The position numbers and the translations under genes are program-made. Shown here one piece after another: positions 7,083 to 40,763 of a stretch of 54,515 nucleotides of DNA. Under the pieces are notes generated by a model. That model worked only from the letters and a program-made list of their open reading frames with translations. It was not told the origin of the DNA and ran no database searches. Location of the stretch: the IMG/VR virus record IMGVR_UViG_3300010885_005167, positions 1-54,515 of that record; one strand, given 5' to 3'. The number at the start of each line of letters is the position of its first letter. Position 1 is the first letter of the stretch. The DNA comes from a virus.

Positions 7083-7090
7083 TATAAATA
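7083..7090 (+). promoter_or_regulatory. T4-type late promoter (TATAAATA) for gp26-like gene
   Basis: Exact match to the T4 late -10 octamer TATAAATA, 51 bases upstream of the ATG at 7142. Late transcription would need the gp55 sigma encoded in this window. Confidence 0.7.
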
Positions 7091-11597: not shown

Positions 11598-11946
11598 TTG
11601 TTTTTCCTTTTTTTGGTGGCCTACCTCTTACAGTATTCCTAATTCTTGGCGGATCTATTTTTGGTCTGCCTCTTTTCTTTGGTAGAGCTTTAATCCTTGC
11701 TTTTTCTTTTTTCTCTGCTTTGTGTTCGTCAATTAAATTTTGAGTATGTTCACTGTACACTGACATAGAAATTTTCCGCATTTCTTTTTCTAACTTTATC
11801 ATGGCAGTAATTGTTCTTCGAACTTTTGCACCACCTCTAAATGTTGGTTTATCTAGAAACGCTTGATGATAGTTATGCAATTCTATAAATCGTGAGATAT
11901 ATTCTGAATGTAATTCCTTATATAGATTGAATTTTTCATTCGACAT
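11575..11946 (-). CDS. Small protein with two AT-hook-like motifs
   Basis: 123 residues, family not recognised. The first 75 residues are helical; the C-terminal third has KKRGRPK (residues ~90-96) and VRGRPPKKGK (~105-114), both with the RGRP core of AT-hooks, which bind the minor groove of A+T-rich DNA. The gene starts inside the end of gp46 (11-base overlap), linking it to the recombination operon. A DNA-binding role in this A+T-rich genome is inferred from the motifs only. Confidence 0.65.
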   Translation of the reverse strand: MSNEKFNLYKELHSEYISRFIELHNYHQAFLDKPTFRGGAKVRRTITAMIKLEKEMRKISMSVYSEHTQNLIDEHKAEKKEKARIKALPKKRGRPKIDPPRIRNTVRGRPPKKGKTNDINNTN

Positions 11947-13717
11947 AGTCTATATCGTTGCTGTAGCTAGTAAACCCGTTCTCTTTGATAACTCTAAGAA
12001 CATTATTAACCCGCCCAACTAACTCATCCTTGTGTGATATTAAGTATATATTCTTTGATCGCTCTCTGGCCATTTTCTTTAAAACTGCCAATCCAGCTTC
12101 TACTCCTGCTGCATCCATTCCGGCATCCATAAGTTCATCTACAAACAATAGATTAATGCTTTGATACAGACCTTCCCATACATCTCTAAATGCAAAACTC
12201 ATGGATAAAATTAATCTATTTCGTTCACCTCGACTTAAATTATCAAAATCCAAGTCCTGTCCTAGCTGAGTAATCTCGATACTTAGATCATTTTGAAATA
12301 TTACTCTATGTGGTAATCCAAGTTTATCAATATAATAACTTAACCGTTTGTTCAAGTAGCTTAAATTTTGATCAATAATCTTTTTACGGATAAAAGAATC
12401 TTTATTGGTTAGAAGTTTATGTAAAAATTCTTGATGATCTTTAAGTTTTGTTAAATCATTTACTGCATTCCAATTAATTTCTTGTATAGCAGTCTTCTTT
12501 AATTCAATAATTTGTTCTTGATACGGATTGCTCTCATTAATTTTACTTGTTAAACTTTTTTCAAGTCCATCTAAATTGTTTTTATGTCCTAATGCTTCTG
12601 ATTCTGTATCGTAGAATGTTGCAGGCATACGAGGAGCATCACCAACGCCAATCTCTTCTACAATTTTGTTCAAGTCTTGTGATACTTTATCAAAATATTT
12701 CATTGCTTCACCGAGGTGTTGTACAGCAGTTGCAGTCATTTCTTCGTGTTTATGATCGTGTAGCTCTTGTTCACAGGCGTGACATATTTTATCACCTAGA
12801 CTTGCTAGTTCTTTTTCATACTTTTTAACAGTTCTTTCAGCTTGCCCTAGAGCAGATTCAAGAGTTGCCCGCTGTTTATTAAGATTTCGAATCTTAACAT
12901 CGTGCTCTTTCCATGCTTTAAGTTTAGTATGTGCTATTAACTCTGCTTCAATATCAACATTTTCAAGTCGCATCATGGCACGACCTAAGTTTTCAATGTC
13001 TGATTCTTTCTTTGTGTCCCACGCATTGCTCTTAATACCCAAGCTATCAATGCTTTTTTGTACATTTTCGTTAGCAGCCTTGATACCTTCAATTTTATAT
13101 TGTTCTTGCTGTATAAAATCTTTACTTTCTTTGACTAAAATCTTCAATGCTTCTGCTTTTTCACTCAATAAAGTAATACCTAATAGCTGTTCAATTACTT
13201 CACGCTGTTCCGCAGCCTTCATAGATAAGAACGGTTCAGTATATGTGTTCAAGGCAACCAAGTGTTTGAACATGGTATGCGTCATTTCTAGCATTTGTTC
13301 AATAGCTTTTTGTGTTTCTCTGCTATCTCCCTGACTATCATCCTCTGACTCGTCAGTCTTTAATTGATTGTCGTTAACAAACAATCTAAGTATATTGGGT
13401 TTACGGCCACGCTCAATACGATATTTGGTGCTATTCTTCTCAAACTCAACAGTGACCAACATGGCTTTACCATTAGTTTTATTAATCAAGTTTTCTTTCT
13501 TGATGTTTGTCAGTGCTTGCCCGTATAATGCATAGCTCAACGCATTAACAATAGTAGTTTTACCTGTGCCATTACGAGATCCGGTATCATCGCCACCTAG
13601 ATCTAAGTTACTTCCTAACACCAGTGTTAGTGCTTGCTTGTCAAAATCCACTGCTTGAGTTTGATTACCTACACTCAAGAAATTTTTCACGGTTATATTT
13701 TTTAGTTTAAACATCAT
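11936..13717 (-). CDS. 46: Recombination endonuclease subunit gp46 (Rad50/SbcC-like)
   Basis: 593 residues, near T4 gp46 (560). It is the ATPase subunit of the Mre11/Rad50-type complex that processes DNA ends for recombination-dependent replication and host DNA breakdown. Visible parts: Walker A GSRNGTGKTT (residues ~46-55), long coiled coils, a zinc-hook CHAC (~312-315), the ABC signature LSRGERNRL (~495-503) and Walker B LLFVDE with a following D-loop (~522-530). It starts at the end of gp47; two consecutive ATG codons (13717 and 13714) are possible. Confidence 0.97.
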   Translation of the reverse strand: MMFKLKNITVKNFLSVGNQTQAVDFDKQALTLVLGSNLDLGGDDTGSRNGTGKTTIVNALSYALYGQALTNIKKENLINKTNGKAMLVTVEFEKNSTKYRIERGRKPNILRLFVNDNQLKTDESEDDSQGDSRETQKAIEQMLEMTHTMFKHLVALNTYTEPFLSMKAAEQREVIEQLLGITLLSEKAEALKILVKESKDFIQQEQYKIEGIKAANENVQKSIDSLGIKSNAWDTKKESDIENLGRAMMRLENVDIEAELIAHTKLKAWKEHDVKIRNLNKQRATLESALGQAERTVKKYEKELASLGDKICHACEQELHDHKHEEMTATAVQHLGEAMKYFDKVSQDLNKIVEEIGVGDAPRMPATFYDTESEALGHKNNLDGLEKSLTSKINESNPYQEQIIELKKTAIQEINWNAVNDLTKLKDHQEFLHKLLTNKDSFIRKKIIDQNLSYLNKRLSYYIDKLGLPHRVIFQNDLSIEITQLGQDLDFDNLSRGERNRLILSMSFAFRDVWEGLYQSINLLFVDELMDAGMDAAGVEAGLAVLKKMARERSKNIYLISHKDELVGRVNNVLRVIKENGFTSYSNDIDYVE

Positions 13718-14727
13718 AGGCTGTTATAAATTTCTAATAAGGTTGATTTATCAAATTGTTCTGATTCGATATTGATTAATTGTTCTGAAACTATTTGATC
13801 AACGCTTTCAAATTGGGTGTCTGGATTGTCATCAATTGTGCCATCCATATTAGTTTTATCTTGTATAAGACTAATTTCGCGAATATCGTAGTCCTTGACA
13901 AATGTTTCTTTAATGAAGTTTGCTTCTTCGTAGCTAATATCAATATCAAGATTTACCTTGATATGCATTTTAGACATCATAATAGTGTCAGCATTATCAA
14001 TTAAGTCACTGAGTTTAACAGTTCTATACTTAGGACAGTCTGGCCAATCAATAAAGTTGGGTTCTCCGCCCCACTCTAAAGTCATCATTCCACGTTTGTC
14101 ATCCCATGTATCTGAGAAGTTATGGGGAAACGCATTGCCAATATATATTACTTTTTTGTTTTGTTGTCGTTTATGGAAGTGGCCACTGAAGATATAGTCC
14201 GGGGCACTAAAGTCTTCTGCTTTAAGTTCACCATGATCGGGCATTTGTACCATAGCATTCATATAAAACTTGGGTAACTCAAAGTGTCCAAACACATATT
14301 TGCTTTTGACATTCTTCATAGTCTTCCACTCGTCGCCTACTAACCAAGGTACTAGGGTGACATCGCCTAGGGTGGTAACATTATCTACGACAGTTACACC
14401 GGGAATATGGCGTCCAAACGCACTACTATGGATGTCACGCTTGTCTTTATAGAATAAATCGTGATTACCTGGAAACCAGTAGAACTGTTCAAATGCCGCA
14501 CCTAGTTTTTCAAGGCAACGAATTGATACATCGAGACTAAACAAGTTGATAGAATTTCTATTGTGATGCCAATCTCCCATAAAAATACAAGTTTCGCATT
14601 CTGCTTTTTTTGATTCTTCAATAAACCAATCTATAAATTCTTCACAATCTTGATTGTGTGTAGCAGAGTTTGATTTTAGGCCGATATGTAGATCAGTCAT
14701 GCAAGCGACTTTTTTAAATAAATTCAT
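13714..14727 (-). CDS. 47: Recombination endonuclease subunit gp47 (Mre11/SbcD-like)
   Basis: 337 residues from the ATG at 14727; T4 gp47 has 339. It is the metal-dependent nuclease partner of gp46. Phosphoesterase motifs are DLHIG (~12-16), GDWHH (~51-55), GNHD (~87-90), GHFE (~147-150) and GHFH (~182-185), giving the usual two-metal site. An in-frame TTG lies one codon upstream, but the ATG overlapping the stop of the homing endonuclease gene (TGATG) is the better start. The close coupling with gp46 supports co-expression of the complex. Confidence 0.97.
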   Translation of the reverse strand: MNLFKKVACMTDLHIGLKSNSATHNQDCEEFIDWFIEESKKAECETCIFMGDWHHNRNSINLFSLDVSIRCLEKLGAAFEQFYWFPGNHDLFYKDKRDIHSSAFGRHIPGVTVVDNVTTLGDVTLVPWLVGDEWKTMKNVKSKYVFGHFELPKFYMNAMVQMPDHGELKAEDFSAPDYIFSGHFHKRQQNKKVIYIGNAFPHNFSDTWDDKRGMMTLEWGGEPNFIDWPDCPKYRTVKLSDLIDNADTIMMSKMHIKVNLDIDISYEEANFIKETFVKDYDIREISLIQDKTNMDGTIDDNPDTQFESVDQIVSEQLINIESEQFDKSTLLEIYNSL

Positions 14728-15488
14728 CAAACTTCCTTTGCTTTATAGCCATTGTAAAATTCTCCATTTTTTGATTTTTCTAATACGGTATTTGCCCATT
14801 GGCCTGTTTGTCGTTGAAAATCACTCTTACTTAAAAAGTATAACACTTTTCCGTCTTCAGTTTCAACCTCTAATCTCTTCGAAACTTTTGTAGCACCCTT
14901 GGCACCATTTGCTTTTGCAATTTTTTTATGCTCTTCTTTATTTTCTTGTTGCCATTTAAGAATTTTATTAACTTTATTTTCTATTGCCCCCGGAACTGCT
15001 TTGTAGTATTCTTTTAATGATTCTGCTCGTCGTGCATTTATTTCTGGAGTAAATGCACGTTTAACCATTTCTTTTCTTTGTTCGGGCGTAGTATTTGCCC
15101 ACTTTGTTTTATTGTATTCTCTAAAACGATCTCCGAGTGTTGTTTTTATTAGAATCATTTCTTCTTCAGTTAGTTTATACCAACCAGTATGCCCTAATCC
15201 ATCCCCACCTCTGCTAGAATTTAAACCATTCTTATAAGAATCGTATTGTTCGATATATTTTATTTCTGCTAATGCCAATTGTCCTAGTGATAAAAATTCT
15301 CCTTCGATGACCTCGTAGGTACACTGGTCGAGGCCATGCTGCTTCATTGCTAAATGTATTTTTCTTTTAGTATTTTTTTGAGATTCTCGACAATGATCTT
15401 TCCACCTTGATTTTTTGTACTCGAGATCAGTGTCCATTCCGATGTAGACTTGATTTAACGGAATTACTGTAATTTTATAAATGAACAT
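14727..15488 (-). CDS. Free-standing GIY-YIG homing endonuclease
   Basis: 253 residues. The N-terminal FIYKI ... VYIG (residues ~2-16) is the GIY-YIG catalytic start, followed by SRWKDHC with the expected Arg (~32) and IKYIEQYDS in the C-terminal part of the nuclease. Residues ~110-215 contain basic helical repeats typical of modular DNA-binding (NUMOD-like) segments, and the end (DFQRQTGQWANTVLEKSKNG) resembles a small helix-turn-helix binding module. It is wedged between gp55 and gp47 with a one-base overlap onto gp47 and has its own late octamer upstream, the usual setting for a mobile Seg-type gene that does not interrupt a coding sequence. Confidence 0.88.
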   Translation of the reverse strand: MFIYKITVIPLNQVYIGMDTDLEYKKSRWKDHCRESQKNTKRKIHLAMKQHGLDQCTYEVIEGEFLSLGQLALAEIKYIEQYDSYKNGLNSSRGGDGLGHTGWYKLTEEEMILIKTTLGDRFREYNKTKWANTTPEQRKEMVKRAFTPEINARRAESLKEYYKAVPGAIENKVNKILKWQQENKEEHKKIAKANGAKGATKVSKRLEVETEDGKVLYFLSKSDFQRQTGQWANTVLEKSKNGEFYNGYKAKEV

Positions 15489-15512: not shown

Positions 15513-15520
15513 TATTTATA
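15513..15520 (-). promoter_or_regulatory. T4-type late promoter (TATAAATA) before the homing endonuclease
   Basis: Exact minus-strand octamer 25 bases upstream of the ATG at 15488, in the 74-base gap after gp55. It would give the homing endonuclease late expression separate from the recombination genes. Confidence 0.65.
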
Positions 15521-15562: not shown

Positions 15563-16489
15563 TCAAATACTATTTTGCTCATCTTCCTCAATATTAGATT
15601 CTTCAGACTTGGGTTGTCTAAAATGTTTATATAGTTCTGCCTGACGAGCAGTTTCTTCTGCATACTCTTGTTTGTATTGACGAGTCATACTTGGAGTAAG
15701 TCCTGCTTCTTCTAACATATCATCGCGGATGTTTTGATTCTTCTTTTCAATATTCAATACACGAGTGAACGAATTAGTTACTGCGGCGGTGTAATATGCA
15801 AAAGGATTCTCAGATTTACTTTCATCAAACTGTAGACCAATTTGACTTAATTGTAAAATAGCTTGTCCACGCATTTCTTCATTGTAAGTATATCCACGCC
15901 AATTAGATCTTTGTGCATAACGTTCACTTAATTTAATAAACATCTTACCTAAGTTTTCGGTAATACGTCCATGATCTTTAGAAAACTTACCAGTTTCAAT
16001 ATCACCCTTCCAGTGACTCTTTGCCACGCAGATTAATTCACCTGCATCATTGTATTTCCAATGTTGGTATGGAGGAAAGTTTACTTTCTCATGACTATCT
16101 GCTGTATTTTTAAGTGTCTTTTTACGACCCGGAGCAAGTGGAATATGCTCAAATGTCATAATACGGATAATAATATCAGTTTTTGCAATGGTAGTATAGT
16201 CTTCGGTACATTCTGCAAGTTTAATTTTCTTGTCACCTGCTATTCTAGCCGCGCCAAATGCTAAAATTCCCTGACGTTTTGCTCTAGCTCGTTTGGCTTC
16301 TGCTACGGTTCTAATGTTGACCTTGTCTAAATTTGTTAAAATGATATCATGTTGTTGATATGCAGGGTCAGTAAAGCTGCCAAATGAACATTTGCTTTTA
16401 TGTATCTCTGATAATAAGTCTCGATTGTTTAGATACTTTACTCTTTTCCCCGTTGGGGATATATGTGTGGGAAGGGCTGTTGTTATAAT
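15563..16489 (-). CDS. 55: Late transcription sigma factor gp55, with N-terminal extension and non-ATG start
   Basis: The part from the ATG at 16159 (198 residues) matches the late sigma factor gp55: the core NEEMRGQAILQLSQIGLQF and NPFAYYTAAVTNSFTRVLN bind RNA polymerase and late promoters. The same frame stays open to 16531 and the extra ~110 codons look fully coding (TSPTG-like start ISPTGKRVKYLNNRDLLSE). I recall long gp55 forms in marine T4-like phages beginning in this way. No ATG, GTG or TTG exists in the extension, yet a clear AGGAG sits at 16494-16498, pointing to ATT at 16489 or ATA at 16486 as start. A perfect sigma-70 promoter lies just upstream. The core call is firm; the exact start is not. 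Confidence 0.88.
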   Translation of the reverse strand: MITTALPTHISPTGKRVKYLNNRDLLSEIHKSKCSFGSFTDPAYQQHDIILTNLDKVNIRTVAEAKRARAKRQGILAFGAARIAGDKKIKLAECTEDYTTIAKTDIIIRIMTFEHIPLAPGRKKTLKNTADSHEKVNFPPYQHWKYNDAGELICVAKSHWKGDIETGKFSKDHGRITENLGKMFIKLSERYAQRSNWRGYTYNEEMRGQAILQLSQIGLQFDESKSENPFAYYTAAVTNSFTRVLNIEKKNQNIRDDMLEEAGLTPSMTRQYKQEYAEETARQAELYKHFRQPKSEESNIEEDEQNSI

Positions 16490-16493
16490 TATT

Positions 16494-16498
16494 CTCCT
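16494..16498 (-). promoter_or_regulatory. Ribosome binding site that points to a non-ATG start of gp55
   Basis: Minus-strand AGGAG, four bases before the in-frame ATT at 16489 and seven before the ATA at 16486. No ATG, GTG or TTG lies in frame downstream of it until 16159, more than 300 bases away. Confidence 0.7.
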
Positions 16499-16507
16499 GG
16501 ATGTAAC

Positions 16508-16535
16508 ATTATAGCATGGATTTTGCCAATGTCAA
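16508..16535 (-). promoter_or_regulatory. Consensus sigma-70 promoter for gp55
   Basis: TTGACA (16535-16530), a 16-base spacer and TATAAT (16513-16508) on the minus strand: both hexamers are perfect. The predicted start of transcription near 16500 is just upstream of the AGGAG, so the leader would be very short. This would let the host polymerase make the late sigma early. Confidence 0.85.
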
Positions 16536-27000: not shown

Positions 27001-27436
27001 CAAAGCCATTAGTGATGAAATTGTATTTCATCCTGTACAGTATAAAATATTATTTGGATCTAATGCCAATGTTAATTTACAAGCAAAATTTAAAGCAGTT
27101 AAAAATCCTGATAAAATTACAACTGATAACTATATAAAAACACAAATACTTGCAGCGATCAATGATTTCTTTGCATTAGAAAATTGGGAATTTGGACAAA
27201 GTTTTCACTTCAGTGAACTATCAACTTATATTATGAATGTACTTACTCCGTATATTACTAACTTTATTATTGTGCCTGTGGCAAATAATGGATTTGGAAG
27301 TTTGTATGAAGTGGCATGTTTATCAAATGAATTGTTTATAAGCGGAGCAACAATCGGCGACATTGAAGTTATTGATGCAATTACCGCATCTCAATTAAAA
27401 TCTTCTTCAACAATTATAACAAACAGTGGAACCTAA
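24035..27436 (+). CDS. 6: Baseplate wedge protein gp6
   Basis: 1133 residues; T4 gp6 has 660. The N-terminal region (SEDWKKVYQSFRNADFKSYD, IDVIAYLGQNLSFRIDLNAR, ENFLETAQRRDSILRLAQLV) is a clear gp6 match, and residues ~395-450 (APQAYYTQNRMITGEDYNIAPL) belong to the conserved baseplate-J-like core. gp6 dimers form the continuous inner ring of the baseplate that reorganises on contraction. The C-terminal ~500 residues are much longer than in T4 and beta rich. The stop is one base before the ATG of the next, giant gene. Confidence 0.95.
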   Translation: MIPSTNTKLLVSEDWKKVYQSFRNADFKSYDFETLRRTMISYLQEKYPEEFNDFIDSSEYIALIDVIAYLGQNLSFRIDLNARENFLETAQRRDSILRLAQLVSYNPKRNVPASGFLKLTAVATSDTVYDSNGTNLANTVIGWNDPTNPDWYQQFINIINSAMSTNFGNPTNRATIDAVLTEQYKINSSSVDVPAFSFSKSINGTSMNFEVVSSTFDDQTYVYESPPTPASAFGITYKNDNQGSSSANTGFFTHFKQGSLNVARFSLDNPVPNEIVGINTPNINNTDTWLWQLDKNGNFSTLWTPVSSLIGNNVIYNSINKSVRSIYNVNTRENDQIDLTFADGVFGELPSGSFRFFYRQSNGLTYVIKPEQMSGVSVSIPYVNALGQNHTLQMTLSLQYTVTNSSGPETNASIQLKAPQAYYTQNRMITGEDYNIAPLTAGSDILKIKSVNRISSGLSKYFDLSDVSGRYSKTNIFANDGILYKEDKTNIFEFEFSSRNQVLAVVKNQINPIVSSPLLRSFYIDQFPRISLTSINSITWNQTNVISEESRGYFKVAGIPSAVSVFADNNLKYIVPGSIIKFVAPLKNNTTPQYFDQKNALKTVPLSGVIPNGGRPYIWATVKQVIGDGSNYGIGNLSDGTGPVIFSTRVPQGAIPSEIIYKYNSILSYAIETEIANICMTRRNFGLTIDNTTRDWQFILNSNLNLTNPFSLFNQFDSTDQGKDSSWLFSFVWTGRSYVVKYRTTDYLFESELETAFFNDASTVNYDFSTNTVIKDKIVVLSINSTTATNTIGLGYDHTWQIDGPVVEPDGYIEPTKVKVSFYDETNTGQILDPNSFDEIVGDQYIYFEKNSDSTRYVLSAADILPFSTDTDFYAYKTANPTNFGSLFYFYDPAINVVKYWSTATASLIYTDQYIGKIGRSDIKFHYQHNSGNERRIDPSKSNIIDIYVLTNTYNSNIRSWLLGNISTEPLPPTSQSLGQNYLSALTPIKAISDEIVFHPVQYKILFGSNANVNLQAKFKAVKNPDKITTDNYIKTQILAAINDFFALENWEFGQSFHFSELSTYIMNVLTPYITNFIIVPVANNGFGSLYEVACLSNELFISGATIGDIEVIDAITASQLKSSSTIITNSGT

Positions 27437-27437
27437 C

Positions 27438-30400
27438 ATGGCGGATAACAAAAAATCAGTTAACCTTTTACCTGAGTATTTAAAAACTGATAAGAATTCA
27501 AAATTCTTATCTGGTACACTTGATCCTCTAATACAAACGCCTCAGTTAGAACGTATTGACGGATTTGTTGGTTCAAAAATATCTCCAAATTATGATCCTA
27601 CTACTGATTTTTATATCAATGAAGATTCTAATTTAAGAACTAATTATTCTTTAGAGCCTGCATTAGTTTTTAAAGATAAGGAATCTAACATTACTGATGT
27701 AGTTTCGTTTGATGATATTATTAATGAACTTGAAATTCAAGGTGCTAAAACTAATAATCTTGATAGACTATTTAGATCAAAAATTTATTCATATGATCCT
27801 TACATAGACTGGGACAAACTAGTAAACTATAATCAATACTATTGGTTAGTGAACGGACCTGATTCAATTTTAATAGATTCAGCTGTTAATGTTGACACTG
27901 ATATTATTGGCATGGAATCATATACAATGCCTAATGGTTACGATTTATCTAATGGCATGAAAATTAAATTTTCTCTACAGACCATAACAACTGCTTCTCA
28001 AAATAAAGAATTTTACGTTGAAGGTGTAGGTACCAGTATCAAGTTGGTCGCGGTAGATCTTCTACAGGTAAACGATTCAGTATCGTATATTTACAATGAA
28101 ACATTTGATAGTGATGCATTTGATAGCTACCCATTTGACGGCGATAGTAAGCTACCAACTCTTCCTGAGTATGTAACAATTAATAGATCTAGCAATGATC
28201 TAAATCCATGGTCTCGTTATAATCGTTGGTTCCACGGTGAAATTATTCGTATCACTTCAGAGATTAATAATCAGACAACTGTTTATCCTGTAACTTTAAA
28301 AGCAAAAAGACCAATTGTTGAATTTAAACCTAATTTGCAATTGTATAATTTTGGTATTGAAGGGATTGAAAATATTGATTTAATTGATACAAATACAGTA
28401 AATGTTTTTTCTGATGTAAATGGAACTGTTGGATACTATGTAGATCAAGTATTGCTTGAACAAGGACAACGAGTAGTGTTTAATGCTGCTGGAGATCCTA
28501 GTGTCCGAGAAAAAATTTATCAAGTAAATTATATTAATAATATTCTAACTCTAGAAGAAGTTGGAACAGCATTGGATCAAAATTCAATGTCGGTTAATTA
28601 CGGATTACTAAATCAAGGAACAAGCTGGCATTACAATGCAAGTACTTCTAAATGGGTTGGTTCACAACAAAGAACCCATATAAATCAAGCACCATTGTTT
28701 GATATTTTTGATAGTAATAATGATAGTTTTGGAAATAAAGAGCCTGGTAGTTCTAATTTTATTGGATCAAAAATATTTGGATACGATGTTGGAACAGGCA
28801 CGGCTGATAGTGTTTTGGGATTTCCATTAAAGTATCAAAATAGCGTAGGTGTTGGTAGTTACTTGTTTAAGAATTACTTTATGTCCGATGTTGTTAATAT
28901 CACTACTAATGGTGTAAGTTCTAATTCTACTACTGGAATTGGATATTTTAAAATTAATATACCGTATGGTACTACACAGTATCCTAATGTTTGGCAATCT
29001 TCTGTGGATAATCCAATTCCAGTCGTTGAAATACAAACAGTTATTAACAGTACTAGCACGTTAAAAATTTCTTCCTTTAATCAATTAGATAGTCTTTCAG
29101 TATCGGCGTTGATTAATAATTCTTATGCTGCTGTAACTATTAATACGGCTACACTAACTGTAACATTTGATAAGACTCTTAAAATAAATGATGTAGTGTC
29201 ATTAGAAATAGTTACTAATTCTATTCCTAACAGTAATGGATTTTATAAGACTCCTCTAAGTCTAACTAATAATCCTTTAAATGGACCTATTACTGATATG
29301 ACCTTAAGTGAACTTGAAAATCACTTATTGACTATGGTTAATCGTATTGATAATTTTTCTGGAGTATTTCCTGGAACTAGTAATTTACGAGACTTATCTG
29401 ATTATACAAAGTTTGGAACACGACTAATTATTAATTCTAATCCAATCGCATTTGCTCAAATGTTCCTTGGAAAGAAAGAACACAATGTAGTTGATGCACT
29501 TAGGTTAGCGGCTGATCAATACAATCAATTTAAAATGAATCTATTAAGAGTTATTGCCAAAATTGATAGCAATGTCTCTCCTGCGGCTGCTCTTGATATT
29601 GCATTACTTGAAATTAATGCTAGTAAAAATTCTTATTCTTCCTACTACAGATCTGACATGTTAGGGTATGGAGGTAATAAAGTTGTACGTTCAAGCACAG
29701 TTACTAATGTTAATATAGTTACATATCCAATCGGCAATGATTTTGACCTTACCTCATTAAGTTTTAAATCTGTATTAGTTTATGTTAATGATGAGCAGTT
29801 AGCAGTAGGCGAAGATTATACTGTTTTACATAATGAAATAACTTTTACCAATTTATTATCACTTGGGGATGTTATAGATATTTGTTATTATCCAGATACT
29901 TTAGGTTCGTTTGTTCCTGCAACTCCTAGTAAATTGGGATTATATCCTGCATATGCTCCTGCAATTTATTTTGATAGTTCTTATATAGGTAACGATGTAA
30001 ATGTTATTCAAGGGCATGACGGAAGTATATTACCAGCATACAATGATTATAGAGATGCTATAATACTTGAATTTGAAAAACGTGTTTACAATAATATAAA
30101 AGTATCATACGATGCAACGGTATTTGATGTTAATGCTGTTATTCCCGGCGCATTTAGAAAAGACAAGTATGTTTTATCAGATGCAACCGATATCCTAACA
30201 AAAGATTTTATTAAATGGACAGGAACATATAATATTGATGCATATACCAATAATTCTTTTGATGAAGGAAATCCGTTTTCTTGGAATTATAAAGGTAGTG
30301 TTGGACAATTAGGAAACACTGTGCCTGGCCACTGGAGAGGTATTTACAAATATTTCTATGACACTGATCGTCCACATACCCATCCTTGGGAGATGCTTGG

Positions 30401-33400
30401 TTACTCTTCTAAACCATCATGGTGGGATACTTATTATAGTTGGACAGACAATGCTAAAAGATCTGCTTTAATATCTGCAATTATTAATGGAAAAACTAAC
30501 GAACCACCGTCCATTAAGGTTAACCGTAATTATGCTCGTTCTTTATTTTTATATATTGTTCCAGTTGATAATTCTGGAAATTTAAAAGATCCTGCATCGT
30601 TCTTAGTAAGTGCAAATGGATATACTGAAAAAACATCTAAGTGGGTATTTGGTGATCAAGGCCCTGCAGAAACAGCATGGAGAAAAAGTAGCTACTGGCC
30701 ATTTGCATTGAATGCAGCCGCTGCATTACTTGATCCTTGTACCTATACATCAACAATGTATGATACCAGTAGAACACAATTAAATCAATTAGGTCAAATA
30801 AATTACCTAACTGACGATCTTTATTTAAATCTTAATAAACTTCTAATAGAAGGTCCTGTACAAACAGCTGGGTTTGGTGTATACATTGTTGAAAAAGGTT
30901 TACAAAAAGATTTAAATTATCGAGATACGTTGAATCAAGATTTTGATTATCTTGATTTTAATTTATTCCATAAGGTAGGTGGATTTGTTAGTAAGGATAA
31001 ATTACAAATTCTTATTGATTCAATTGATCCATTATCGCAAGCTCAGGGTGTAGTACTACCACCAGAAGATTATACATTATTATTAAATGTAAGTAATCCA
31101 ATTAAATCAGCTAGCATATCGGGTGTCATTGTACAAAAATTTGAAGGCAAATTTATTGTTAAAGGATATGATAAAATTAATCCTTATTTTGAAATTCTTA
31201 ATCCAATAAGTTTAAACTCAGCAGGTGCCCTGTCTGTTGGCGGAAAATCTGAACAATTTACTGAATGGGCCAGTGTAGTTAATAATGGAAATAGTGGACT
31301 TAGCTCTATTGACATTACCTCTACACAATCAAATACAACACGGTATTATAAACCAGGACAACTTGTACGATATAATGGAACATTTTATAGAGTAAAAGTT
31401 GGTCACACAGCACAGTCTACATTTAACCTTGCATTATTCTATCCATTGCCATCATTGCCAGTTACTGGTGGTGCCACAGTACAATTGCCATCAAGATTTG
31501 AAACAACTGTAACTAAAGTTCCTTATGGAACAAGCTACACATCTGTACAACAAGTATACGATATGTTACTTGGTTATGGTGCATATCTCAAAAGTCAGGG
31601 ATTTATATTTGATGAATTTAATACGGATTTAAATGAAATTATAGATTGGAAATTTACTGGAAAAGAATTCTTATACTGGTCTACACAAAATTGGGCCGAC
31701 GGTAACTTAATTACATTAAGTCCATTTGCAGATTATTTAAAATATTCTTTTGCGGATTCAATTGTTGATAATATTTCTACGGGAAAATATGAATATAGTT
31801 TGCTAAAAGCAGATGGAAAATCATTTCCTATTGATAAATTTAGATTAGCACGAGAAGACGGCGTATGCACTATTACAGCAGTTGATACCCAGGAAGGTAT
31901 ATTTTTTGCAACATTGAATTCTGTACAAAAAGAACATGGAATGGTCTTTAATAATTCTACAATATTCAACGATACAATATATGACATTGAAACTGGATAC
32001 AAACAACGAAGAATAAAACTTTCAGGATTTAGAACTTTAAATTGGAATGGCGATTTGTCCAGTCCTGGATTTGTATACGACTCGGTAGATATAGTTGATT
32101 GGAAAACATATTCAACATATCTCCCAGGTAAAGTTGTAAGATACAACGGAGCATATTACGAGTCTAATATTAAGATTGTTAATGATGCTACATTTGATTT
32201 TGTCAAGTGGACTAAACTAAACAGTAAACCAGAATCAAACTTGCTTCCTAATTTTGATTATAAAATTAATCAGTTTGAAGATTTTTATAGTTTAGATATT
32301 GATAATTTTGATTCTGCTCAACAACAGTTAGCGCAACATCTAATAGGATATACTCCACGGACATATTTAAACAATATTTTCACTAATCCAGTTAGCCAGT
32401 ATAAATTCTATCAAGGTTTCATAAGAGAAAAAGGAACTAAGAACGCAATTGACAAATTAGCTAAAGTTGGTAAATTTACTCGTCAGGGCGAAGTTTCTAT
32501 AACAGAAGACTGGGCATTTAGAACAGGAGAATACGGCGGGTTCTCAACTTATAACGAACTTGAATTTACATTGCATGAAGGAATTTCTTCTGAAAATCCA
32601 TACGCTACTAAAATAGTTAACAGTATTCCTACTGATGCAAACCCCTTACTTAATTATGTTCAGTCCGCATCGTTATTATTAACACCAAATAATTTTGATC
32701 CTACTGCATCATTTATTACATATCCTAGCACATACGATGATAATAATATAGAATTACCAATGGCAGGATATGTACGGGCCAACGATGTAACAGTTACCGC
32801 TTACAATAAAAACAGTCTCTTAGATATTGCAAATAATTCTTTAATTAAAGAAGGCGATACTATATGGCTAGGATTTTTAGAAAATGGAAGTTGGACAGTT
32901 TATCGATATGCTAAACAATCTGCTAAAATTGCTGGAGTATTTTTAAGTGCGCCAGGCGAAAGTATTACATTTACTTCTGATATCAATCACGGACTATCAG
33001 TGGGAGATATAGTTTCTGTAGTTAGATTTAATGATCAAGTAAATGGAATTTATATAGTAAGTAGTATCCCTAGGTTGGATCAATTTACTGTAGCGTCAAC
33101 TTTGGTTACTATAGTTGATGCTACCTTGTTAAGTTATGGTGCATTATTTAAATTTGAAAATGTAAGATACAATAATACAGAACAACTTGCCGGCACTAAA
33201 GATGTTTTAACAGCAAACTATGGAGAAAAAGTTTGGATTGACAGTGGTGAAGATGGAAAATGGAAAGTATACGAAAAGGTAAAAAATTATTCTACAGCGT
33301 CAAATATTTACAATACATTATCATTTCCATTAGGGCAGAAATTAGGAACCGCAATATATGCCACTGACAATTCTAATGTAGTATTAGCTTCGGCTCCTGG

Positions 33401-36400
33401 ATTTGATCCTTCAGTATTTCCTGTTGTTAAAGTTCCGGGTATTGGTAGAGTGTGGGTATACTTTAAAAACGCAATTACTGGAACGTTATCTAAACAATTT
33501 GAATATGCGTTAAACAGTATATCTAAAACTTACTGCAATATCTCAATATCTTCTGACTTTGGATACTCGTTATCATACGATACCAATAAAAAATTATATG
33601 TTGCAGGTGCACCTGCTGCAACTAATGTTAGAGGTCCTAATTCTCCAACTGGAGTAGTTACACTTAGTACAGGTGCCGGTAATGTAAGATCATTTACTTC
33701 AGAAGGTTTGGTTAAGATTAGTAGTAAAAAGACCGTAATTAATCAAGAACAAACTGAAGCAGTCTTATTAAATCCATACCCGGCCTCTAATGATAAGTTT
33801 GGACATTCTATATATGTAGCATCAACCTCGGCCACTGCATCGTCTATGTTGTTAGTTTCAGCGCCAGGGAACAATACTGGAAGGGTTCATGCCTATTCTA
33901 TTACTCGTGCTACCTTAACTGCACCAATTAGTGTTGCAGCACATTCTCAAGGAATTACCCTAGCATCACATGTGGCGTTAACTAACGGAAGTCAATTTGG
34001 ACATAAGATTGCTGGCTCTGATAGTGGTAATATTATTGCTATTAGTGCTCCAAATTATACTGCTACTAATATCACTGGTGTTGTTCAACTGTTTAACAAA
34101 AATTTAAATTGGATACAAACAATATATTCACCGTTTGGCACTACTGAGGCATTTGGAAACGAAGTTAGTGTTTCCGCAGATGGAACATATATTTTTGTTT
34201 CATCAATTAATACTAAAACAGTAGGTGAACCATACGGCAAAGTTGCTGTATATAAATTTAATGGTACAGTTGCAACGCTACATCAGATTATTAATAATCC
34301 ATTCCGTCACAACAATTTAAAATTTGGAACTGCAATCTCTATTAGTAAAGATAACGAAACTCTAGTTATAAGTGCATTAGGAATTAATGAATCTAATATA
34401 CTATATTTTGATGTTGATACTAGAACTGGTGAAACAACATTTGATGGTGGTACCACTCAATTTTCTGCACCAGTTCCTGAATCTGGTACTGTATATGTGT
34501 TTAACAATCTTGAAGGATATTTTATACCGTCAGATGAATTAACAAATTCCTATATACTAACTAGCAGTAGATACGGAGCATCTGTTGCAGCTACTAATAA
34601 TAGAATATTCATTGGAGCACCATCAACTGCGTCATCAGGATCTGATAATTCTACATTATTTCAATATGATAAAATTGACAACGGATCTAGTAGTTGGAAT
34701 CTATTAAGACAGCAAGAAGATTTAGTAGATGTATCTACTATTAATAGAATTGCGTTAATTGATTCACTTAAAGAAGAAGTGACTGAATATCTTGAAATTA
34801 TTGATCCAGTAAAAGGAAAAATTTCTGGATTGGCAGAGCAAGAATTAAAATATAGATCTGCATTTGATCCTGCTACCTATTCAATAGGATTGGCTAATAA
34901 TATTGTAGATGCTGATACCAGTTGGATTGATGAGCACGTTGGAGAACTTTGGTGGGATCTAAGTACTGTAAAATATACTTGGTACGAACAAGGCGATGAA
35001 ATTTATAGAAAAAACAATTGGGGTAAATTATTCCCAGGATCTAGTGTAGATGTTTACGAATGGGTCAAGTCTGATTTACTACCTAGTGAATGGGCTGCTC
35101 AAGCAGATACCAATAGTGGACTAACTAGTGGCATTAGTGGACAACCTAAATACCCTAATAACAGTAGCATATCAGTTAAACAATTGTTCAATAATGTAAC
35201 AAACTCATTTGAGAATGTATATTATTTCTGGGTTAAAAATAAAGTAACAGTTCCTGGTGCTAAAAATAGAAGAATTAGTAGCTATCAGGTATCTAGAATT
35301 ATTTCAGATCCTCTTACTTATGGATTGAAATTTGCTGAAATAGTATCTCCAAGCAGTATTGCATTTGCTAATATTCAAACATCATTAATTGGTAATCGTA
35401 TAAGTGTTAATATTGCATCAGATAGCGGTATGAATAATATTCCACGACATACAGAATGGATATTATTATCAGAGGGAACTGCTAACAGTGTACCAACACC
35501 GCTGTTGGAGAAAAAATTAATTGATAGTTTGTTAGGACATGATCTAAATGGGAATGCTGTACCTGATATTTTCTTAACTTCTAGAAATAGATATGGAACA
35601 GGAATACGTCCTCAACAAACTCTGTTTAAGGATAGAATTGGTGCTTTAAGAAATGTAATAGAATTTGCTAACTCAGTATTGATTAAAAATATAATAACAG
35701 CTGGAACATATAATTTTGATACATTAAATCTTCAAGAGCCATTGCCTGATCTTTATACCAGAGAATATGATTTAATAGTTGACAGTAGAGAAGTACGTAA
35801 TGCAGTTGATTCTTCATTATTTGAACAAGCAACAATTGAATGTGTTATTTCTAATGGCAAAATTGCATCAGCAACTATTGTTAATCCAGGGTATGGATAT
35901 AGTCTTGCACCATCAGTAACTATAGTTGCAGATTTGTCTGGTGCAGAATTATTAACTGAAATAAATGCAAATGGCCAAGTAGTTGCAGTAACTATTTCAA
36001 ATTCAGGTTCTGGATTTGTTAATGTTCCTCAATTAATAGTACGACCGCATACTGTTGTTATAACAACAGATGCCGAATGGCAAGGACTTTGGACCAAACA
36101 TCAATTTGATTATAATGCTCGTGATACTAATACAGATCAAGACAGCTGGTGGATTAGAATTAAAAATCAAACATACAATACTCCCCTTTATTGGAACAAT
36201 GTAGATTGGGTTGATGATACTTTTAATCAATTTAAAGATTATCAGTATGTAATTAATACCACTGAAGAAATTGCTTCGTTATATGATGTCGCAGTTGGCG
36301 ATTATGTTTATATTAAAAATTTAGGCGATGGTAACTATGCTATACTTGAAAGAGTATCCACAGAGGGAAATTTTTCACCATTCTATAATATTGTTTATAG

Positions 36401-39400
36401 AAAAGCAGGTACTATACAAATTAATGAATCAATCTGGAATTACAATAATTTAAATTATGATTACGATATTGCTACATTGGATGAAACACTTTATGATCAA
36501 ATTCCTGATTTAGAAGTATATTATATATTGCAAGCATTAAAGAATGATATATTTGTAAATGATTTAAAAATCAATTGGAATCTATTCTTCTTTGCAGCGG
36601 TAAGATATGCATTAACTGAGCAGAAACTTTTAGATTGGGCATTTAAAACTTCATTTATAAATGTTACTAATCAAGTGGGTGTATTGGATCAACGTCCTGT
36701 TTATAAATTAGATAATGAGCAATATTTTGAAGAATATGTTAGAGAAGTTAAACCTTATCATTCAAATATAAGAACTTATACTTCTAAGTATACATACCTT
36801 GATGATCTTTACGATCTAACTCTTACTGATTTTGATTTTCCAAGTCAAGCGTGGACAGATAATCATACCTACTCAGTTGGGTCTGTTATTGTTGCAGAAT
36901 CAGGTACTGGATATACTACTACTCCAGTAGTAACTATTAATGGCGGCGGACCAAATGTTACTACTACTGCCACTGCTGAAGCATATCTAAGAAGCGGTGG
37001 AGTATATAAGATATTAATTACAGACCCAGGTGCTGGTTATACTGAATTACCTTCTGTATCTATTACTGGAACCAACCTTACTAATGCTACTGCATCAGCT
37101 ATATTATTAAATCAAACAGTTAGAAAAAATACCGTTGGACTTAAATTTAATAGAGTTAGTTCCGCATCTGAAATTGGTGATCTTCAAGTTAATGATACAT
37201 TTACTTGTTCTGGTAGAGATGATAAATTTGTATTGTCTTGGTTAGCGGAACCTAATAAATTAAATATTCAACCTACATTGGATGGAAGATTAATTCTTTC
37301 CTCTGACTATACTATTGAATATTATACAGAAACATATAATGATTATTCTAAAAAATATTCAAGATTTGTTTTCTTAAATTATGTTCCTGCAAAATATCAA
37401 GTGTTTAATATTACCTATAATAAGAGTATTCAATTATATACTGCTGTAGATATGATTGAACAATTATATACAGGAACTTTTGCAATTTCATCGTTAATGA
37501 CAGGAACTGTATTCCCTGGATCTGTCGTACAAGGGTTACCTTTTAATTATTCAATTCCTTGGGATACAAACAATTCCTATGATGTTGATTCATGGAGTGA
37601 CATTGTAACAGATTATACATCTGCAAAATTAGTTGCTAATGCTACAACTGGAACAACAATTTTGTATCTTAATACTACTACTGGAATTGTTCCATGGCAA
37701 GAAATTAATTTTACAAATTATTCTACAAATGTAATTAGGAGTAATACAGTCGTTTCATCTGTAAACTCAGTTCTTAATTATATAACTATAGATAATAGTT
37801 ATTATAATATTAGATACGGTAAATCTACATCAACTAATGTTGGAACAGAGATAATATTTAAAACTATAACAGCATTCAACGGAGGTATAGTTGAAGGTGA
37901 TAGAATCACTGTTGACGGTATTGACGACTATGGATTTAATGGCACCTATCAAGTATCGTCTATTATTGACATTGATAGATTTGCTGTAATTTCCACTGTA
38001 GAACTTTCTACAACAACTACATATCCGTCAGCAGCATCGTCAGCAACTTTATTTTCAGTATTAGAAAATATTGAAACAAACGGCATATACATTGATCGTA
38101 TTGTAGATAGATTTAGTTACAATACCGAATCGTTTGTAGTAGATACGCAATATGCATATGATGATGTTTCTAAAATTGTAATATTTAAAGACGGGTTATT
38201 AGCACCTATGCTAACTGGTATTCCAATAATTGGACCATATCCAGCACAGGAATATTATAGAGCAGTAAAATCTAGCAATGGCAGATTAGTATTAGAATTT
38301 TATCAAATGACAGATGCTTATTACGATCTTGATATTAATCTATACAGTGATCCAACAATTGAATTTTGGAATACAGCCGGTATAATTGCTGGATTGTCAA
38401 CTACTACAACTGTAATTTCTAGCACATTTAATGTAGACCCAGTTAATTATACATTAGATGGAGATTCTTTCTTAAATGTTAGATCTGGATATGCTCCAGA
38501 AGAAGCAGTAAACGGAACAGTATTAGATAGTTTAGGTATTAATGTTTATACTAAGGGTGAAGATTCAACCGCATTAGTTTATTCAGGATCGTTCTTAGTT
38601 ACTCCTAACGATACTAGCGAGGCATTGACTATTCCATGGGCATACGCAGGTATTATGGTACACTTCAATGGAGAAAAGTTTACACAGGTAGCTAATCAAA
38701 CCGAATTCACTTTATCTACACAATTCTATATGGTTGGAAACACTATTCACATGGCACCTCAAACAGTAACAGGTCGTGCTGGATTTACTGCAATATCTAT
38801 TGGCGGCGACTATTCCGTAATTGATGGTAACATGGTAACAGTTAATAATTCAAGTCTAGTAATTGTGGAAAGTTTAGCAAGCATACGTGATATAAAGAAA
38901 GTGTATGTTTTAATTGATGGGCAAGAAGTTGGAGAAATTTTTACACCTATTGAGTTGGCAGATGGAACCGGCCGTGCATCGGTAGTTGTTACGGGGCTTA
39001 ATCCAACTCGTACTCATACAGTTGAAGTATGGTTCTTCCAGTCAGATTATACCAACTTCAATAGAGTACACGAAGAAATCTTTACAGTGAGCGGATCAAC
39101 TGTTGAATTGTTAGTTGCACCAAAAAAATCAGAACCTGTAAGTGCTCAAGTAATTGTTGAACAAAACGGACTAAGATTAACTCCTCCAGCAGTTAGCTAT
39201 TACAAAGTGGAAAATAATCAACGTATATATAAAGTAGATAATAAACATGTCCGTGATCCTAACACTTATACTGCTAATGATGTATCTGTATATGTTAACG
39301 GTGTTACATTACGCCCTGGATTTGAATATGTATTAAATGAATCTAATAATACTATTACTATTGTTCAGGGATTGTTAAGAAATGGAGATGTAATTGCAGT

Positions 39401-40763
39401 AATGGGATTAGTTAGTGGAGAATATGAGTACCTTATTGATGGAAATATAGTATCTCTAAACACTCCTATTATTGGTGCTACATTAAGAGTTATATCATTT
39501 ACTGATCATGATAACATGTTAATTAGGACAGAACAGTTTGACGGATCTCCATACAGAAAGTTTGCAATGTCACTTCCTCTGCCAGCTGACGATTATGTAT
39601 GGGTATATGTTGACGGCGTTCCTTTAACAGCTAGATATGATTTTGAAATTTTAGATGATTCAAGAACTATACAAATTAGCGATGCAATAAAAGTTACTTC
39701 ATCCTCTACTGTAATTGTTACTACAATTAATCCAGCATCGTTTGGTACAGATATTCTTGGATATAGAATATTTGAAGATATGTTTGGAAAGCAAGGTATT
39801 AACCGTTTAGCAGATTTTTACACAACTTCGTTATCTAGTCCTTTACATGCTGATGATTCTGAAATTTATGTAGTGGATGGTAGTAAATTAATTTCGCCAA
39901 ATCCTGCAACTAATAGTCCTGGAGTTGTTATTATTGATGGAGAGCGCATTGAATTCTTTAAGAAAGATAATAATCGTTTAAGTCGATTAAGAAGAAGTAC
40001 TCTTGGTACAGGTCCTGCAGATGTATCTGCAATTGGAACAAAAGTAATTGATCAAAGTTTTTATCAAGATCTTCTCGGTACTGAAGTTATTTTAGTACAA
40101 AGTACATCAACAACAGCTACTACCTATGCTATTAGCGAAGTAGGAAATTCTGTTATTGGTGACGGAATTACTTTTGTACAAGGGGTGGATCTAGTTGATC
40201 AAGTTAGTGTTTATTATGGCGGAAGACAGTTACGTAAGAGTCCGTTGTACTATCACGATACTGCTATTTCTTATGATCCAACTGTTGATAGTGTTAGCAT
40301 ATTACCTCCAGAATTTACAATTACTATTAATACGCCAAGAACACCTTTGTTAGTTAATGACTCGGTTACCGGTCGACCTCCTACCGGATCGGGTTGGGTG
40401 TTCCATGAAACCACAGCCACCATGCAGATACAGCCAGGATGGATCATGCAGGATGCTAGCGGTGCTAGATACACAGTTACCTATTCAGGGCATAATACTT
40501 TGTTTAACGGCTGGGGAGTTGGATTTGCAAATAGTATAACTATAGCATGGCCATTGACATTTATTGAACCTAAAATACAACAACTTACCTTAAATATTTC
40601 AGATACAAATGGGATTGATACCGATATAAAAATTGTGCAAAAGAAAGGTCAAGTTTGGACTGGAACTGGCATAGTTTCTTTATTGGCTAGTACATCTATA
40701 CAAGCTACTTTCTTGCAAGATAAGAAAGCAATATTACCTGATAGATATTATTATGGAGAATAA
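27438..40763 (+). CDS. Giant baseplate/tail structural protein (4441 residues)
   Basis: One uninterrupted frame of 13.3 kb. I take the ATG at 27438, not the upstream in-frame GTG at 27426, because it directly follows the gp6 stop. It occupies the place of T4 gene 7 (1032 residues). The first ~250 residues include NQYYWLVNGPDSI, recurrent in T4-like baseplate giants. Internal modules: two carbohydrate-binding-like GxxVRYNGxxY segments (~1300 and ~1563), FG-GAP-like repeats (FGHSIYV, FGHKIAG, FGNEVSV; ~1960-2400), four GxGYxxxPxVxI units (~2815, 2855, 3150, 3195) and several fibre-type units VNGVTLRPGFEYVL (~780, 3955, 4057). It probably combines wedge attachment with surface-exposed binding modules. 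Function is inferred from position and repeats. Confidence 0.75.
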   Translation: MADNKKSVNLLPEYLKTDKNSKFLSGTLDPLIQTPQLERIDGFVGSKISPNYDPTTDFYINEDSNLRTNYSLEPALVFKDKESNITDVVSFDDIINELEIQGAKTNNLDRLFRSKIYSYDPYIDWDKLVNYNQYYWLVNGPDSILIDSAVNVDTDIIGMESYTMPNGYDLSNGMKIKFSLQTITTASQNKEFYVEGVGTSIKLVAVDLLQVNDSVSYIYNETFDSDAFDSYPFDGDSKLPTLPEYVTINRSSNDLNPWSRYNRWFHGEIIRITSEINNQTTVYPVTLKAKRPIVEFKPNLQLYNFGIEGIENIDLIDTNTVNVFSDVNGTVGYYVDQVLLEQGQRVVFNAAGDPSVREKIYQVNYINNILTLEEVGTALDQNSMSVNYGLLNQGTSWHYNASTSKWVGSQQRTHINQAPLFDIFDSNNDSFGNKEPGSSNFIGSKIFGYDVGTGTADSVLGFPLKYQNSVGVGSYLFKNYFMSDVVNITTNGVSSNSTTGIGYFKINIPYGTTQYPNVWQSSVDNPIPVVEIQTVINSTSTLKISSFNQLDSLSVSALINNSYAAVTINTATLTVTFDKTLKINDVVSLEIVTNSIPNSNGFYKTPLSLTNNPLNGPITDMTLSELENHLLTMVNRIDNFSGVFPGTSNLRDLSDYTKFGTRLIINSNPIAFAQMFLGKKEHNVVDALRLAADQYNQFKMNLLRVIAKIDSNVSPAAALDIALLEINASKNSYSSYYRSDMLGYGGNKVVRSSTVTNVNIVTYPIGNDFDLTSLSFKSVLVYVNDEQLAVGEDYTVLHNEITFTNLLSLGDVIDICYYPDTLGSFVPATPSKLGLYPAYAPAIYFDSSYIGNDVNVIQGHDGSILPAYNDYRDAIILEFEKRVYNNIKVSYDATVFDVNAVIPGAFRKDKYVLSDATDILTKDFIKWTGTYNIDAYTNNSFDEGNPFSWNYKGSVGQLGNTVPGHWRGIYKYFYDTDRPHTHPWEMLGYSSKPSWWDTYYSWTDNAKRSALISAIINGKTNEPPSIKVNRNYARSLFLYIVPVDNSGNLKDPASFLVSANGYTEKTSKWVFGDQGPAETAWRKSSYWPFALNAAAALLDPCTYTSTMYDTSRTQLNQLGQINYLTDDLYLNLNKLLIEGPVQTAGFGVYIVEKGLQKDLNYRDTLNQDFDYLDFNLFHKVGGFVSKDKLQILIDSIDPLSQAQGVVLPPEDYTLLLNVSNPIKSASISGVIVQKFEGKFIVKGYDKINPYFEILNPISLNSAGALSVGGKSEQFTEWASVVNNGNSGLSSIDITSTQSNTTRYYKPGQLVRYNGTFYRVKVGHTAQSTFNLALFYPLPSLPVTGGATVQLPSRFETTVTKVPYGTSYTSVQQVYDMLLGYGAYLKSQGFIFDEFNTDLNEIIDWKFTGKEFLYWSTQNWADGNLITLSPFADYLKYSFADSIVDNISTGKYEYSLLKADGKSFPIDKFRLAREDGVCTITAVDTQEGIFFATLNSVQKEHGMVFNNSTIFNDTIYDIETGYKQRRIKLSGFRTLNWNGDLSSPGFVYDSVDIVDWKTYSTYLPGKVVRYNGAYYESNIKIVNDATFDFVKWTKLNSKPESNLLPNFDYKINQFEDFYSLDIDNFDSAQQQLAQHLIGYTPRTYLNNIFTNPVSQYKFYQGFIREKGTKNAIDKLAKVGKFTRQGEVSITEDWAFRTGEYGGFSTYNELEFTLHEGISSENPYATKIVNSIPTDANPLLNYVQSASLLLTPNNFDPTASFITYPSTYDDNNIELPMAGYVRANDVTVTAYNKNSLLDIANNSLIKEGDTIWLGFLENGSWTVYRYAKQSAKIAGVFLSAPGESITFTSDINHGLSVGDIVSVVRFNDQVNGIYIVSSIPRLDQFTVASTLVTIVDATLLSYGALFKFENVRYNNTEQLAGTKDVLTANYGEKVWIDSGEDGKWKVYEKVKNYSTASNIYNTLSFPLGQKLGTAIYATDNSNVVLASAPGFDPSVFPVVKVPGIGRVWVYFKNAITGTLSKQFEYALNSISKTYCNISISSDFGYSLSYDTNKKLYVAGAPAATNVRGPNSPTGVVTLSTGAGNVRSFTSEGLVKISSKKTVINQEQTEAVLLNPYPASNDKFGHSIYVASTSATASSMLLVSAPGNNTGRVHAYSITRATLTAPISVAAHSQGITLASHVALTNGSQFGHKIAGSDSGNIIAISAPNYTATNITGVVQLFNKNLNWIQTIYSPFGTTEAFGNEVSVSADGTYIFVSSINTKTVGEPYGKVAVYKFNGTVATLHQIINNPFRHNNLKFGTAISISKDNETLVISALGINESNILYFDVDTRTGETTFDGGTTQFSAPVPESGTVYVFNNLEGYFIPSDELTNSYILTSSRYGASVAATNNRIFIGAPSTASSGSDNSTLFQYDKIDNGSSSWNLLRQQEDLVDVSTINRIALIDSLKEEVTEYLEIIDPVKGKISGLAEQELKYRSAFDPATYSIGLANNIVDADTSWIDEHVGELWWDLSTVKYTWYEQGDEIYRKNNWGKLFPGSSVDVYEWVKSDLLPSEWAAQADTNSGLTSGISGQPKYPNNSSISVKQLFNNVTNSFENVYYFWVKNKVTVPGAKNRRISSYQVSRIISDPLTYGLKFAEIVSPSSIAFANIQTSLIGNRISVNIASDSGMNNIPRHTEWILLSEGTANSVPTPLLEKKLIDSLLGHDLNGNAVPDIFLTSRNRYGTGIRPQQTLFKDRIGALRNVIEFANSVLIKNIITAGTYNFDTLNLQEPLPDLYTREYDLIVDSREVRNAVDSSLFEQATIECVISNGKIASATIVNPGYGYSLAPSVTIVADLSGAELLTEINANGQVVAVTISNSGSGFVNVPQLIVRPHTVVITTDAEWQGLWTKHQFDYNARDTNTDQDSWWIRIKNQTYNTPLYWNNVDWVDDTFNQFKDYQYVINTTEEIASLYDVAVGDYVYIKNLGDGNYAILERVSTEGNFSPFYNIVYRKAGTIQINESIWNYNNLNYDYDIATLDETLYDQIPDLEVYYILQALKNDIFVNDLKINWNLFFFAAVRYALTEQKLLDWAFKTSFINVTNQVGVLDQRPVYKLDNEQYFEEYVREVKPYHSNIRTYTSKYTYLDDLYDLTLTDFDFPSQAWTDNHTYSVGSVIVAESGTGYTTTPVVTINGGGPNVTTTATAEAYLRSGGVYKILITDPGAGYTELPSVSITGTNLTNATASAILLNQTVRKNTVGLKFNRVSSASEIGDLQVNDTFTCSGRDDKFVLSWLAEPNKLNIQPTLDGRLILSSDYTIEYYTETYNDYSKKYSRFVFLNYVPAKYQVFNITYNKSIQLYTAVDMIEQLYTGTFAISSLMTGTVFPGSVVQGLPFNYSIPWDTNNSYDVDSWSDIVTDYTSAKLVANATTGTTILYLNTTTGIVPWQEINFTNYSTNVIRSNTVVSSVNSVLNYITIDNSYYNIRYGKSTSTNVGTEIIFKTITAFNGGIVEGDRITVDGIDDYGFNGTYQVSSIIDIDRFAVISTVELSTTTTYPSAASSATLFSVLENIETNGIYIDRIVDRFSYNTESFVVDTQYAYDDVSKIVIFKDGLLAPMLTGIPIIGPYPAQEYYRAVKSSNGRLVLEFYQMTDAYYDLDINLYSDPTIEFWNTAGIIAGLSTTTTVISSTFNVDPVNYTLDGDSFLNVRSGYAPEEAVNGTVLDSLGINVYTKGEDSTALVYSGSFLVTPNDTSEALTIPWAYAGIMVHFNGEKFTQVANQTEFTLSTQFYMVGNTIHMAPQTVTGRAGFTAISIGGDYSVIDGNMVTVNNSSLVIVESLASIRDIKKVYVLIDGQEVGEIFTPIELADGTGRASVVVTGLNPTRTHTVEVWFFQSDYTNFNRVHEEIFTVSGSTVELLVAPKKSEPVSAQVIVEQNGLRLTPPAVSYYKVENNQRIYKVDNKHVRDPNTYTANDVSVYVNGVTLRPGFEYVLNESNNTITIVQGLLRNGDVIAVMGLVSGEYEYLIDGNIVSLNTPIIGATLRVISFTDHDNMLIRTEQFDGSPYRKFAMSLPLPADDYVWVYVDGVPLTARYDFEILDDSRTIQISDAIKVTSSSTVIVTTINPASFGTDILGYRIFEDMFGKQGINRLADFYTTSLSSPLHADDSEIYVVDGSKLISPNPATNSPGVVIIDGERIEFFKKDNNRLSRLRRSTLGTGPADVSAIGTKVIDQSFYQDLLGTEVILVQSTSTTATTYAISEVGNSVIGDGITFVQGVDLVDQVSVYYGGRQLRKSPLYYHDTAISYDPTVDSVSILPPEFTITINTPRTPLLVNDSVTGRPPTGSGWVFHETTATMQIQPGWIMQDASGARYTVTYSGHNTLFNGWGVGFANSITIAWPLTFIEPKIQQLTLNISDTNGIDTDIKIVQKKGQVWTGTGIVSLLASTSIQATFLQDKKAILPDRYYYGE

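Follow-up and report, generated by a model that had tools for sequence, protein, structure and literature searches.

A gene for the late-transcription sigma factor gp55 in an environmental virus record no longer carries the ATG with which its closest relatives begin, and comparison with those relatives identifies the defect as a private loss of the start codon, with no inherited rare start behind it. We put at about one half the probability that the loss is real, arose by a small in-frame change, and leaves the long-type gp55 of this T4-like jumbo phage to be initiated at a near-cognate codon. The DNA analysed, termed the window throughout, is the whole of a single 54,515-base IMG/VR virus record from the environment.

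A full-length late sigma factor gene without a standard start codon

The gp55 frame of the window lies on the minus strand, where reading the letters for open frames gives 322 codons from 16531 to 15563, bounded upstream by an in-frame TGA at 16534-16532 (Table 1). Its earliest ATG, GTG or TTG is the ATG at 16159, as an initial annotation of this DNA had pointed out. The same annotation took the codons upstream of 16159 for genuine gp55 sequence, and this assignment stands. In the protein translated from the ATT at 16489 on, residues 15-278 match profile positions 5-276 of 286 in PHROG 12791, annotated as 'sigma factor for late transcription' (E 4.8e-84); taken by itself, the stretch of 110 residues ahead of 16159 also matches this family (E 2.8e-12). 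A Pfam search with the same protein gave no significant match. This upstream part also aligns with relatives from its first residues on. Relative to the close homologue L001, 97 of 104 residues are identical before 16159 (dN/dS 0.036) and 187 of 198 after it (dN/dS 0.031). By this measure the codons before 16159 are under strong purifying selection, equal to that on the rest of the gene. Most of this selection predates the start loss; it indicates that the region was coding and says nothing of coding now.

The window protein is an ordinary member of a long-type gp55 family. Isolated jumbo phages of Pseudomonas, Klebsiella, Agrobacterium and Serratia (PA5oct, RaK2, Atu_ph07 and Serratia phage BF) carry the same long gp55, with annotated coding sequences of 834-879 bases, and share with the window the full-length match, the N-terminal core and an inserted domain. 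The genes inspected in these phages start with ATG, whereas the window record is without one. A distant DNA search of isolated phages returned only 11 partial matches. The initial annotation had counted ~110 extra N-terminal codons, a count that is apt relative to T4 gp55 and fails against the protein's own family, whose length is the same; nor do these codons form an N-terminal extension, because the additional residues are inserted within the protein, behind helix 1 (see below). Since gp55 is single-copy in all seven long relative contigs searched, a spare copy is not expected.

Table 1. Coordinates of the gp55 gene, its control elements and candidate late promoter motifs in the window
Feature	Position	Strand	Basis
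gp55 stop-to-stop frame, full-length long-type late sigma factor	15563..16531	-	ORF reading and PHROG match
TTGACA, -35 of a sigma70-type promoter; overlaps in-frame stop TGA 16532-16534	16530..16535	-	common to L001/L002
TATAAT, -10 element, spacer 16 bases	16508..16513	-	common to L001/L002
AGGAG Shine-Dalgarno sequence	16494..16498	-	common to L001/L002
ATT, candidate near-cognate start, 4 bases past AGGAG	16487..16489	-	use inferred
ATA, candidate near-cognate start, 7 bases past AGGAG	16484..16486	-	use inferred
GCCCTT where closest relatives have ATG	16472..16477	-	alignment with L001/L002
YLNNRDLLSEIHKSK core, predicted first helix of the sigma region 2 fold; corresponds to T4 gp55 from residue 10 on, including N13	16388..16435 (approximate ends)	-	model and fold alignment
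Predicted inserted domain, ~140 residues between helices 1 and 2 of sigma region 2	15959..16387 (approximate ends)	-	model and fold alignment
ATG, first standard in-frame start, internal Met	16157..16159	-	ATG in 204 of 205 relatives with motif found
TATAAATA sites	7083, 10495, 15513, 46783	+, -, -, -	motif search of window

The start codon is missing from the window alone

We examined 251 gp55 loci, obtained by three scans of viral sequences and one of bacterial genomes, together with five isolated phages, merging loci of one contig that had been fetched twice only when the gene sequences were identical. The core pattern was present in 243 loci, representing 173 distinct genes; in 169 of these an in-frame ATG precedes the core by 4-20 codons, and the other four have GTG or TTG. 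Inspection of the other eight loci found ATG in seven, while L258, cut by a contig end, was left out of the count. Distinct relatives with a readable N-terminus thus start just before the YLNNRDLL-type core, with ATG in 176 of 180 and GTG or TTG in four; among these 180, we found no gene lacking all three codons and none that starts at the equivalent of 16159. The genes with GTG or TTG (L133, L137, L170 and L173) are all distinct and were all recovered with the L089 query.

The closest relatives, L001 and L002 (94% identity to the window), reveal what was changed. Their 21-base leader, AGGAGAATAATTATAACAACA, is the same as that of the window and was found in no further contig; directly after it they read ATG CCC ACA CAT where the window reads GCC CTT CCC ACA CAT. 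The suggestion that the start ATG had been mutated is thereby supported. Because no relative shares the defect and L001 and L002 keep the ATG after the same leader, sequence comparison favours a private loss over an inherited rare start. The change relative to L001 keeps the reading frame, and two routes to it would fit: exact loss of the three bases of the ATG from an ancestor encoding M-A-L-P-T-H, or replacement of the ATG by GCCCTT. No convincing donor for the GCCCTT stretch was found elsewhere in the window, where one match with two mismatches lies at 12166.

A serious competing account, to which we give a substantial probability short of even odds, attributes the missing ATG to an error in the sequence or its assembly, or to a consensus that captured a minority or defective genome; gp55 of the living phage would then begin with ATG, as in its relatives. 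None of the 180 distinct relatives is without a standard start, GCCCTT at this place was seen in no other viral contig, and, among the records open to searching, which may leave out some very close to the window, we located no second copy of this virus by a search for near-identical contigs or for an exact 29-base stretch of gp55, so that the change is known from this one environmental record. Moreover, the gene affected is described as essential for T4 late transcription (PMC7892883).

Several features argue against an error. Usual sequence errors affect single bases, whereas here several bases differ and the frame is cleanly kept. Other window genes with relatives have intact starts, and none has its start so far inside the conserved region; the record is thus not generally faulty, as no other gene in it shows such a lesion. 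A survey of starts in the window did flag plausible genes at 7088, 9083, 10972 and 40675, along with many frames overlapping other genes, and inspection explained these four by ATG positions, neighbour overlaps and leader, leaving no case for general decay. Finally, the first codons of gp55 vary naturally among relatives. With other starts intact, the change in frame and the first codons variable, a real DNA sequence is favoured.

Near-cognate codons lie close to an intact Shine-Dalgarno sequence

The control elements upstream of gp55 were read correctly in the initial annotation: a TTGACA/TATAAT promoter and an AGGAG Shine-Dalgarno sequence are in place, and the whole set is common to L001 and L002. 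Downstream of AGGAG the in-frame codons are ATA (16492), ATT (16489), ATA (16486), ACA, ACA, GCC (16477) and CTT (16474). As proposed there, ATT 16489 and ATA 16486 are the fitting candidates; ATA 16492, only 1 base from AGGAG, is too close. Two out-of-frame ATGs at 16517 and 16509 lie within the promoter and run into stops before or just past AGGAG, and were rejected. A search for special RNA structure in the gp55 leader found none (z 0.17).

Shine-Dalgarno spacers in the relatives are long, mostly 10-14 bases after GGA, and the ATG of L001, 16 bases after AGGAG, has among the longest in the gp55 family. Of 56 distinct relative leaders, 25 contain a near-cognate codon that is in frame and suitably spaced from the Shine-Dalgarno sequence; ATA, ATC or ATT appears in the other two frames in 19 and 5 leaders. 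Spacer lengths are distributed 20/20/16 over the three frames and so are not kept in a reading frame. These counts led us to reject near-cognate codons as a conserved feature of the gp55 family. Since such codons arise by composition in so many relative leaders, the ATA and ATT of the window are weak evidence of use, and since they are common and the spacer is not kept in frame, nothing marks them as selected starts. Their position near AGGAG would be permissive for initiation without proving it.

Starts of this type have precedents. The infC gene and Staphylococcus aureus cvfC1 and ccpN have AUU or AUA starts near a Shine-Dalgarno sequence, as do the window candidates. Output from AUU and AUA sites in S. 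aureus is described as ~10% of that from AUG, and up to 30% for ccpN (PMC13009471). Different species share the cvfC1 and ccpN starts, however, and the Shine-Dalgarno motifs there are extended (PMC13009471); window gp55 has neither feature: its AGGAG comprises five bases and is not of the extended type of known non-canonical starts. A sigma factor precedent is sigR of Streptomyces, which starts at GTC and is repressed by IF3 (PMC5472188). Like window gp55, it encodes a sigma factor and has a Shine-Dalgarno sequence ahead of a non-standard start, but the sigR start was shown by experiment and operates within a sigma/antisigma circuit (PMC5472188), whereas that of gp55 is deduced from one record.

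This precedent, together with the retention of a strong promoter and AGGAG, lends some plausibility to a selected low-output start, in which the late sigma factor would be throttled by a near-cognate codon and IF3 as in sigR. A device of this kind, keeping gp55 levels low, had been put forward in the initial annotation. It finds no support in the relatives: wherever the N-terminus can be read, ATG, GTG or TTG is present, and conservation of a weak start is thus not seen. Nothing indicates that less gp55 would be favoured, and the long Shine-Dalgarno spacers of relatives allow low output without loss of the ATG. We regard selection for low output as improbable.

An internal start would remove the promoter-reading helix

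To place 16159 within the protein, we used an AlphaFold model of window gp55 built from 82 sequences (pLDDT 86.8, pTM 0.75), which replaces a poor model from 35 close sequences (pLDDT 57) and supersedes its fold search. The best structural match is T4 gp55 in the open complex (PDB 7d7c chain F; Z 13.8, rmsd 2.9 A, 123 of 137 residues aligned), with model residues 18-275 on residues 10-153 of 7d7c_F; the next best fold row has Z 10.6. The first aligned pair sets Y-L-N-N-R-D-L-L of the window on T4 gp55 residues from 10 on. T4 gp55 has the same sigma region 2 fold, including the N-terminal helix, but lacks the ~140 residues that the window protein is predicted to carry between helix 1 and helix 2. 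The C-terminus of window gp55 is acidic and is modelled with low confidence.

The model also aligns, through residues 18-248, with residues 110-447 of Escherichia coli sigma70, with only 92 residues aligned. The sigma70 segment at the place of the insertion is known as its non-conserved region. According to the model, the long gp55 insertion sits where sigma70 has this region, and this holds whatever the start codon.

Helix 1 lies ~80-90 codons before 16159. N13 of T4 gp55 is reported to contact base -9 of the late promoter, and its replacement by alanine to impair open-complex formation (PMC7892883). On the other side, the same report describes the gp55 N-terminal region as poorly conserved and absent from many homologues, with reference to the disordered end before helix 1 (PMC7892883). 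A 198-residue product from 16159 would, judging from the model, be without helix 1 and without half or more of the inserted domain. Because helix 1 of sigma region 2 lies before 16159, this product should not recognise late promoters. Since helix 1 is needed for promoter contact in T4, gp55 should work only with an upstream start.

Translation from 16159 into a short gp55 of T4-like length is accordingly the least credible reading, and we rejected it as the main one: 16159 is the first standard start codon and the part that remains still matches late sigma family phrog_234 from residue 158 on, but the codon has no Shine-Dalgarno-like motif upstream in the window or in any of 205 relatives, falls within the conserved inserted domain, removes helix 1 with its NN motif, and has upstream of it codons under purifying selection, though mostly older than the loss.

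A proposed route to full-length gp55

Loss of the ATG followed by near-cognate initiation remains the reading that we prefer. Provided that the sequence is correct, translation must begin upstream of 16159, because a start there costs helix 1 and has no Shine-Dalgarno-like motif. The start ATG would have been lost from a gene that is otherwise intact, as are its promoter, its Shine-Dalgarno sequence and the complete protein it encodes. The ribosome presumably still binds AGGAG and would initiate at a near-cognate codon of the shared leader, most likely AUA 16486 and otherwise AUU 16489. Both are closer to usual Shine-Dalgarno spacing than the lost ATG, and these better-spaced codons were probably present before it was lost. 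The product would be full-length gp55, made in reduced yield and sensitive to host IF3.

More tentatively, and in our estimation somewhat unlikely, a free-living jumbo phage would rely on AUA or AUU to start its essential late sigma factor after loss of the ATG, which would tie late-gene timing to host IF3, and the better-spaced near-cognate codons of the ancestral leader would have made the loss survivable. Were this true, a natural loss of the start codon would be tolerated in a gene that is essential in T4, and close relatives with ATG behind the same leader would offer a clean natural test of AUA and AUU starts. In the parts available to us of the literature on jumbo-phage gp55 and on non-standard phage starts, no phage late sigma factor with a non-standard start is described. 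A gene caller limited to ATG, GTG and TTG starts would shorten window gp55 to 198 residues and so lose the promoter-reading helix.

Gene neighbourhood and candidate late promoters

In the isolated jumbo phages gp47 follows gp55 directly, and apart from one inserted ORF the same is true of the window, where the order gp55-gp47-gp46 is kept (gp47-like, 13714-14727; gp46-like, 11936-13723). The inserted ORF, at 14727-15488 on the minus strand, encodes a GIY-YIG homing endonuclease (PHROG 314, E 7.2e-15; PHROG 5123, E 1.1e-11). Among 80 close relatives, L009 alone carries a related ORF here (52% identity). In 78 of the others the gp55/gp47 spacer measures 43-74 bases; that of L070 is 644 bases and has no match to the window endonuclease.

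Candidate late promoter motifs of the TATAAATA type are rare in the window, with four sites against 9.64 expected; three of these precede an ORF start by 23-51 bases, a placement like that of T4 late promoters. One, at 15513-15520, is just upstream of the GIY-YIG ORF.

Elsewhere in the window, a single plus-strand frame of ~4,440 codons (27420-40763) matches PHROG 10938, a virion structural protein family with a profile 3,324 positions long, and PHROG 460 (head closure Hc2) near residue 2,800.
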